Shown here: positions 18,453 through 20,835 of the stretch, piece after piece
Layout: each line of letters begins with the position of its first letter
How positions within the stretch are numbered: the first letter of the stretch is position 1
Virus record (IMG/VR): IMGVR_UViG_3300046829_000049
Coordinates: 1 to 30,916 of that record
Strand: one strand, 5' to 3'
Origin: a virus
DNA: 30,916 nucleotides
Notes under the pieces: model-generated
Told to the model about the DNA's origin: nothing
What the model saw: the letters and a program-made list of their open reading frames with translations, nothing else
Database searches by the model: none
Program-made: the position numbers and the translations under genes

Positions 18453-19421
18453 CTACGTGATGGTGTTCACGACCGCGAGACGACGCGGGTTGTCCGTGGT
18501 CAGGTTCAACGAACACAGAACTTTGAACACGTCCACGAACTGATTCGACGGGTTGACCGGATCGAACGCCTTCATCCACAACTGGTAGACCAAATGCAGA
18601 TTTCTGTTGTTGAGCACGAAGGCGCTGCCAGCGGGACACGCCGCATCGAAACCGATGGGGATGTCCTTAAACATCGCCGTCTGCCCCTTGAAGCCGCTGA
18701 CCGCCTTGTCCGCACTCGAAATACGGTCGTAGCGTTCCTGCGCGAAGAGCAGTCCCATGAAGCCCTGAAACACGGTCTGCTCCGTCACCGCGAAGGTCGG
18801 CGTCTCTTTGCCGAGGCCGTTGCTCGCGGAGTTGTAGGCACTCTCCAACGACGCCTTCAGCTTGTCGAAGGCTGCCGCCGACTGCGTGCCCGTGACCTGC
18901 TGGTTGCGCCAGAACGAGAACGTCGCCCGGTTGATCTGGCCCACGGTGCCGGTCGTCGGGGTGATCGAGACGAGGTACTGCAACCCACCGATTTCCTTGC
19001 CTGCGGTGCCGTTGCCGTCTGCGAAGAGACCGGTGTTGACCGTCTCTTCGATCGTGCTCTTGAGGTTGTCGAGCTTGCGCGCCATGACGTCGAACTTGCC
19101 GGCGCCCTTGGCGGTGATCGCCTTCTCAAACTCCGACATCGGCACGTCGCCGCCGATGTTCTTCCAGGCAAACTCGGCCTGGTCGAACGGGGTCTGCGGG
19201 GTCACATCCAGCGTTTCGTACTCGGACATCCACTTGACGGTGGAGTTCTCCGCGTATTCGAGGATGTGGAAAATCGCGCGGCCATTCTGCTGCTCGAAGC
19301 TGCCGTTCGCACGGAGCTGCTCCAGCATGTAGTGGCGCGCGAAGATGTTGTCAACGGGATCCTGGGAGACGTATGCTTCCCAGGATTCGGTGACGTCACG
19401 TCCGTCATTGGGATCGGCCAT
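18453..19421 (-). CDS. Major capsid protein
   Basis: 322 aa, ATG with an AGGACAG leader. It directly follows a scaffold-like gene in the order portal, small genes, scaffold, capsid. Features include the helical RHYMLEQLRANGSFEQQNG near the N-terminus, ILEYAENSTVKWMSEYETLD, FAWKNIGGDVPMSEFEKAI, a long helix (FDVMARKLDNLKSTIEETVN) and a beta-rich end (GSAFVLNNRNLHLVYQ). The E-x-x-x-Y-E-T-L beta strand and the spine-like long helix fit the HK97 fold in size and pattern. It would assemble the icosahedral head. The capsid call is by context and pattern; the exact family was not verified. Confidence 0.75.
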   Translation of the reverse strand: MADPNDGRDVTESWEAYVSQDPVDNIFARHYMLEQLRANGSFEQQNGRAIFHILEYAENSTVKWMSEYETLDVTPQTPFDQAEFAWKNIGGDVPMSEFEKAITAKGAGKFDVMARKLDNLKSTIEETVNTGLFADGNGTAGKEIGGLQYLVSITPTTGTVGQINRATFSFWRNQQVTGTQSAAAFDKLKASLESAYNSASNGLGKETPTFAVTEQTVFQGFMGLLFAQERYDRISSADKAVSGFKGQTAMFKDIPIGFDAACPAGSAFVLNNRNLHLVYQLWMKAFDPVNPSNQFVDVFKVLCSLNLTTDNPRRLAVVNTIT

Positions 19422-20498: not shown

Positions 20499-20576
20499 GT
20501 GTCTGTCCTTGTGGCGTCTGGTGCCACTTCCCACGGTCGGTTCGTCTGGGGAACCACGCCACGAAACGTCGAGCAC

Positions 20577-20625
20577 AAAAAGAAAAAGCCCTCGTCAACC
20601 GCGCATGTCGCGGATAACGAAGGCT
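20577..20625 (-). terminator. Intrinsic terminator after packaging/portal genes
   Basis: On the minus strand a 17-base arm (20625-20609) pairs with 20603-20587 around a five-base loop, with two mismatches and G-U wobble. The tract TTTTTCTTTTT (20587-20577) follows at once. It lies just ahead of the scaffold gene, so expression of the capsid genes would depend on read-through or on a promoter in the ~80 bases after it. Confidence 0.8.
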
Positions 20626-20632
20626 AGAACTT

Positions 20633-20699
20633 CGTGCTCGTTGTCTTTGATCAGCCCGCTTCGAGCACGCGGGTTTCGGCCGGCCAGCCTAGATCAAAG
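20633..20699 (-). ncRNA. Candidate structured RNA (outer stem, hairpin, loop-tail pseudoknot)
   Basis: Read on the minus strand. CTTTGATC (20699-20692) pairs with GATCAAAG (20652-20645). Inside is a hairpin with stem CCCGC (20673-20669) and GCGGG (20659-20655). Its loop GUGCUCGAA (20668-20660) is complementary over seven bases to CGAGCAC (20640-20634) downstream, giving an H-type pseudoknot option. The element lies between the last small gene (stop at 20716) and the terminator. It is not a tRNA: no acceptor/T-arm arrangement or anticodon stem fits. Structure is seen by eye; function unknown. Confidence 0.45.
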
Positions 20700-20715: not shown

Positions 20716-20835
20716 TCACGGTCGGTCCTCACTCGGCTTCGGGGGCGCCGCAAAGGGCGCCGCACACCAGCCACAAATCACGCGCCCACTCGGCAACGTG
20801 GTCGGCTTCGGATCCCGACATTTGCACGTCTTCAC
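20716..20835 (-). CDS. 39-aa zinc-ribbon-like mini-protein
   Basis: GTG start (20835-20833) overlapping the upstream TGA by four bases (GTGA), the same linkage used by three genes upstream of it. It starts MKTCKCRDPKPTTLPSGRVI and then has CGWC. Cys4-x-Cys6 and Cys21-x2-Cys24 could bind one zinc as a small ribbon. The last 15 residues are Pro-rich. A 30-aa reading in another frame (from 20821) lacks this pattern. Function unknown. Confidence 0.6.
   Translation of the reverse strand: MKTCKCRDPKPTTLPSGRVICGWCAAPFAAPPKPSEDRP

Follow-up and report, generated by a model that had tools for sequence, protein, structure and literature searches.

A candidate two-state leader RNA of the int-alpA structural class upstream of phage capsid genes

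A structured RNA encoded upstream of a phage scaffold-like gene is probably a cis-acting, two-state leader of the int-alpA structural class, with interchangeable terminator or ribosome-site outputs. The element lies on the minus strand of the window, by which we mean the whole stretch analysed (30,916 nucleotides, positions 1 to 30,916 of IMG/VR record IMGVR_UViG_3300046829_000049). Its fold, the competing complementarities within it, their covariation and their position are all directly supported. The junction class itself, int-alpA, is already known and is listed by Rfam as an sRNA; what appears to be new here is (i) the terminator version, (ii) the competing partners, and (iii) the evidence for cis action on neighbouring genes. 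Our literature search found no paper describing the terminator version, the competing partners or such cis action, and since most subscription papers lay outside that search, an earlier description is possible. The same search met int-alpA in a single paper, incidentally, and RF02996 nowhere. The motif was reportedly presented in a Weinberg paper of 2017.

Results

Architecture of the leader and its gene neighbourhood

The element and the surrounding genes comprise the following features; R1 is a search model described below.

20645..20699, minus strand: three-way-junction RNA, int-alpA-like (Rfam match, R1 model, covariation)
20699-20692 and 20652-20645, minus strand: P1 outer stem of 8 bp, CUUUGAUC with GAUCAAAG (read directly and folded)
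20689-20678, minus strand: P2 hairpin inside P1, GGCUGGCCGGCC (read directly and folded)
20677-20674, minus strand: junction linker GAAA between P2 and P3; the other linkers are UA between P1 and P2, and CU after P3
20673-20655, minus strand: P3 hairpin with loop L3 (read directly and folded)
20662..20668, minus strand: L3 loop segment GUGCUCG, the arm with alternative partners (read directly; covariation in relatives)
20634..20640, minus strand: copy 1, CGAGCAC, pseudoknot partner of L3 (swap tests)
about 20587..20625, minus strand: bipartite intrinsic-terminator hairpin, AGCCUUCGUUAUCCGCGACAUGCGCGGUUGACGAGGGCU (fold; counterparts in relatives)
20577..20587, minus strand: U-tract, UUUUUCUUUUU (read directly)
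20570..20576, minus strand: post-terminator copy GUGCUCG, pairing with copy 1 around the terminator (swap tests)
20539..20555, minus strand: leader hairpin GGUUC-CCCAGAC-GAACC, loop CCCAGAC (loop-motif count)
20511..20527, minus strand: leader hairpin GUGGC-ACCAGAC-GCCAC, loop ACCAGAC (loop-motif count)
20716..20835, minus strand: 39-aa C4 zinc-ribbon-like ORF, its stop 16 nt before P1
19437..20498, minus strand: scaffold-like gene downstream of the leader (named by its position before the major capsid gene)
18453..19421, minus strand: major capsid protein gene (PHROG 9953, major head protein, E 1.5e-42)

Direct reading and folding of the sequence showed the coordinates of the initial annotation to be exact. 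The eight-bp outer stem lies where it had been placed; the single hairpin it was said to enclose is in fact two, P2 and P3. The complementarity noted between the loop GUGCUCG (20668-20662) and CGAGCAC (20640-20634) was borne out, and the two segments covary in relatives; so do copy 1 and its other proposed partner, the second GUGCUCG past the terminator (20576-20570). The element had been described as following the portal region. It does lie between terminase- and portal-side genes on one side and the scaffold and major capsid protein genes on the other, as it does in many related phages, but the gene directly upstream is the 39-aa ORF and not portal. This ORF carries two cysteine pairs (MKTCKCRDPKPTTLPSGRVICGWCAAPF...), and relatives with a PSG..C..CG motif occupy the same place in L003, L004, L005, L014, L016, L017, L018 and L138. 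A PHROG search with the scaffold-like gene gave no match.

The phage element has the GC-rich hairpin followed by a U-tract that marks an intrinsic terminator. Our strict promoter and terminator scan missed this hairpin because of its internal mismatches, and found no sigma-70-like promoter between the RNA and the scaffold gene. The fold is more stable than shuffled sequences (z -4.61; 0/200 shuffles as stable), though the covariation of both competing pairings in relatives carries more weight than this energy. Left to fold freely, the RNA favours the state in which copy 1 is held by the post-terminator copy, with the terminator between them (-67.3 kcal/mol); the pseudoknot state comes to about -64.1 kcal/mol, taken as the nested part plus the pseudoknot helix with no loop penalty, so that the two states are close in energy. 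The match of L3 to the terminator arm is short in this phage, CGAAG/CUUCG only.

The two small leader hairpins sit between the terminator and the scaffold start. Among 37 related leaders, 17 hairpins with an NCCA[CGT]AC loop and a stem of at least 4 bp were found, against 0.09 expected from mononucleotide shuffles; the loop is constant and the stems vary. They are possible protein-binding sites.

Relatives and covariation of the junction

A blastn search of phages with 501 nt gave no match, and relatives were therefore sought through the capsid protein. In the relatives found through the major capsid protein, the module sits immediately before a scaffold-like gene; some capsid-gene relatives show no such module by these searches. 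Over 28 relatives the RF02996 model found essentially nothing, the scaffold leaders being too diverged for it. As MAFFT alone misaligned the leaders, a search model, R1, was built from six of them using anchor-padded sequences. The family was then widened by a core-pattern scan of viral contigs and bacterial genomes filtered by R1; pattern matches in bacterial genomes were near the chance number, and we therefore kept only matches that the model supported. Many sequences came in this way, which biases their core letters towards the pattern, but those found without it keep the same core, C-UA-G and C-G[A/C]A. Two contigs carry two RNA copies within a few kb, the second copies being weaker: L235 (4324-4375 and 3615-3664) and L262 (5454-5508 and 1814-1869).

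In an alignment of 81 distinct sequences that is itself fitted to the structure (A7), 98.4% of stem cells were paired, compared with 61.3% after shuffling, and the stem covariation score was 0.786, compared with 0.142 after shuffling and at most 0.10 with partners slid. An anchor-based swap test made without that alignment, on 92 sequences, whose parse required a P1 of at least five pairs, yielded 7.48 contiguous P1 pairs with a sequence's own partner and 2.85 with swapped partners. The junction is held by an invariant C-UA-G and a nearly invariant C-GAA, about nine such nucleotides in all; with so few conserved nucleotides there is no obvious ligand pocket.

Relationship to int-alpA

Rfam searched at its gathering threshold gave no match in this phage sequence. 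A permissive cmscan matched RF02996 (int-alpA) over the full model length, 1-71, with 29.8 bits and E 2e-4, and a one-family search of the record with RF02996 gave E 4.4e-6. The Rfam search that the initial annotation had proposed did, in this sense, name a family, yet the gathering threshold of 35.8 bits was not reached, and because of that score the phage element is int-alpA-like rather than a filed RF02996 member. All pairs of the three-stem consensus structure form in it, and the conserved core CUAG ... CGAAA ... CU is present; its location between the 39-aa ORF and the scaffold gene differs from the int-alpA place between an integrase and an alpA-type gene. R1 scores the element at 36.7 bits, having been built in part from this sequence. 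In the reverse direction R1, made from scaffold leaders only, recovers the int-alpA element that a Klebsiella record (L039) carries, with 22.9 bits and E 5e-4.

The phage element and int-alpA share the three-way junction P1-UA-P2-GAAA-P3-CU together with the core letters. They also share the loop-to-tail pseudoknot: the Rfam consensus loop CCUUUA is complementary to the 3' tail UAAGGG, and the same pairing occurs in other letters in E. coli (L037, GCCUUA/UAAGGC) and Klebsiella (L039, CCCUA/UAGGG). In contrast to int-alpA, the phage element precedes a scaffold gene and carries a terminator as well as a partner beyond it. From core letters and topology we also considered hammerhead, twister and viral exonuclease-resistant RNA, and did not adopt them.

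The terminator version

We assembled 25 curated, non-redundant phages of this version, the present phage included, with the limits of L3 set by hand; this set replaced an automatic splitting of versions that had misfiled several terminator-version sequences (second copy z 2.1 only). A terminator-equivalent hairpin is present in every member. When each segment was paired with its own partner or with those of the other phages in swap tests, L3 with copy 1 gave z -7.6 / -8.0 and copy 1 with its post-terminator segment gave z -7.9. The control pairing of L3 with the post-terminator segment gave z -1.4 for the 25 phages and -0.4 for the eleven further ones below. L3 with the upper terminator arm, a further control, showed no pairing signal among the 25 (z +1.8), and pairing of L3 with the region before the scaffold start codon, including the ribosome site, was not seen in this version (z -1.0). 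Eleven further capsid relatives have diverged cores that R1 missed, and their layout was found by searching for terminators; copy 1 with the post-terminator segment gave z -4.7 in these (0/5000), and L3 with copy 1 gave z -2.6. The structured RNA is conserved, and compensatory change maintains the pseudoknot as well as the pairing that competes with it and encloses the terminator; compensatory changes and conserved stems, whose absence from related phages the initial annotation had named as evidence against it, are both present there.

One part of that annotation is not supported, namely that the post-terminator copy decides read-through into the scaffold and capsid genes. Polymerase reaches this copy only once it is past the U-tract and the termination decision has been made, so the copy cannot itself set read-through and could act only on read-through RNA. 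The base of the terminator 5' arm appears a better-placed partner for L3 in that decision, with a signal across the 25 phages that is weaker but real (z -4.5).

The module precedes scaffold genes in phages with several coat protein types; it also precedes a predicted capsid gene (L173) and predicted tail genes (L139, L164, L171), all named from position and sequence appearance. In most terminator-version loci, P1 begins roughly 9-23 nt after the upstream stop codon.

Upstream of scaffold genes in L028, L070, L089, L024, L044 and L071, the same pseudoknot-terminator layout occurs with a different junction core. GACA replaces GAA in several of these, and the top of P2 contains UAAUUACC in L028, L070 and L089, the last of which gave no convincing Rfam match. 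This group is possibly a sister class. Two contigs carry two RNA copies within a few kb, the second copies being weaker: L235 (4324-4375 and 3615-3664) and L262 (5454-5508 and 1814-1869).

The ribosome-site version

In a second version, represented by 58 non-redundant sequences, the terminator is missing and L3 has two complements, copy 1 and the Shine-Dalgarno region of the adjacent gene. Swap tests gave z -17.0 for L3 with copy 1 and z -12.1 for L3 with the region before the start codon (n=58), and the mean energies of the two pairings are balanced (-8.6 and -9.3 kcal/mol, respectively). Usually the second copy is looped out by a small hairpin and contains the Shine-Dalgarno sequence, and the start codon follows P1 by 24-39 nt (median 31). 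The true RF02996 members (several loci above threshold) fall among these sequences.

The ribosome-site version often stands ahead of homing-endonuclease genes or behind integrases. Genes downstream of it include HNH, AP2-HNH and GIY-YIG endonucleases, a Rha regulator and a lambda-like tail tube. The RNA precedes free-standing endonuclease genes of the HNH/GIY-YIG type in L193, L125, L146, L134, L150, L161, L131, L162 and L148, some of them recognized by sequence appearance only; RNA and endonuclease gene are placed as if they moved together as a cassette. In the bacterial genomes L280, L278, L258, L202, L214 and L206 an integrase-like C-terminus is found upstream of the RNA, and in L208 and L270 a HigA-like helix-turn-helix protein instead (both by appearance).

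Discussion

As in riboswitches and attenuators, mutually exclusive pairings are here tied to an expression platform and kept by covariation. We propose that the three-way junction would present L3 as a movable antisense arm, which is either taken up by copy 1, immediately past P1, or freed for a second site. In the terminator version, that site would be the base of the terminator 5' arm in most relatives: with L3 on copy 1 the terminator would stay intact (off), and with L3 on the terminator base it would be weakened, permitting read-through into the scaffold and capsid genes. Following read-through, the post-terminator copy would capture copy 1, extend the terminator stem and lock that form of the RNA. 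In the ribosome-site version, the second site would be the Shine-Dalgarno sequence in the small hairpin beside the start codon, free when L3 is on copy 1 and hidden when L3 is on the second copy. The on/off logic, the read-through lock, the direction of control and regulation as such are what we infer from these pairings; the two versions would work by opposite logic, which counts against this reading. Candidate triggers would be a ligand, a protein, or ribosomes translating the preceding gene. Because P1 follows the upstream stop codon so shortly, a ribosome completing that gene is a plausible one.

Several other explanations were weighed against the two-state leader. One is a ligand-binding riboswitch with interchangeable expression platforms, in that a single conserved junction is joined to either a terminator or a ribosome site, as in known riboswitch classes; we consider it unlikely, as only about nine nucleotides are invariant or nearly so and the controlled genes share no pathway. 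Equally unlikely is an element for mRNA processing or stability, in which the extended hairpin would act as an RNase III-type site or block decay, and so keep capsid mRNA apart from upstream mRNA. The helix of copy 1 with the post-terminator segment would indeed lengthen the terminator stem in read-through RNA, but the L3 pairings and the ribosome-site version would be left unexplained. Scaffold autoregulation is known for P22, and the present leader might similarly bind its own product or another phage protein, its switch-like shape being secondary. The position before the scaffold gene, and the tandem hairpins with invariant loops by the start codon, which resemble protein sites, speak for such binding; the same junction, however, stands before unrelated genes (endonucleases, Rha-type regulators, tail tube, integrase-linked genes), and the protein may bind the hairpins, with another role for the junction. 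We regard the binding-site reading as quite unlikely.

Rfam types int-alpA as 'Gene; sRNA', and sRNA genes usually look like this, with folded RNA at the 5' end and an intrinsic terminator behind it. We nonetheless consider it very unlikely that the element is a small RNA acting in trans and ending at the terminator. Copy 1 covaries with sequence past the terminator that a terminated RNA lacks, and this covariation argues for cis action; in the version without a terminator, the Shine-Dalgarno region that L3 matches belongs to the adjacent gene and lies at an almost constant distance. The present evidence points instead to a cis leader. HK022 put is a cis RNA upstream of a phage terminator that works without matching terminator or ribosome site; a processive antitermination RNA of this kind, modifying polymerase in cis, would suit an element directly upstream of a terminator inside a structural-gene operon, but it is highly improbable given a version with no terminator and given that put-type action needs no match of L3 to copy 1, terminator base or Shine-Dalgarno. 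In topology put, with its consensus sequence and two-hairpin fold, differs from the present element, not being a three-way junction with a pseudoknot.

For the two-state leader, a close precedent in regulation is in T4, where homing endonuclease genes (I-TevI, segB, mobE) have hairpins that sequester the ribosome site (PMC2988022). In both systems, RNA structure hides, or here would hide, the ribosome site of phage endonuclease genes on long transcripts; T4 uses a simple hairpin, avoided by a late promoter, whereas here a three-way junction would offer a loop that chooses between a decoy copy and the ribosome site. A close precedent in topology is the flaviviral exoribonuclease-resistant RNA, a three-way junction whose P3 loop is paired just 3' of P1. 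The topology is the same and the core letters are different. To our knowledge, E. coli has no 5'-3' exoribonuclease of the kind that flaviviral RNA resists, and unlike that RNA, members of the present class occur in E. coli; we know of no counterpart to the competing partners in the flaviviral RNA.

More tentatively, and with somewhat less than even confidence, we suggest that these RNAs form a signal-responsive switch class of phages and other mobile elements in many bacterial groups, with one junction and two outputs, of which int-alpA would be only one branch. The terminator output would serve capsid, coat and tail genes, and the ribosome-site output homing endonucleases and integrase-linked genes.

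The two-state leader reading points to a function for a motif that is otherwise filed simply as an sRNA. It also suggests a leader switch within the structural operon as the means by which phages govern the onset of capsid production, the same RNA part being reused with two different outputs. The balance of scaffold and coat against terminase and portal from one operon becomes testable in one short RNA, with a sharp prediction: disrupting and re-pairing the three named segments should change read-through or translation.
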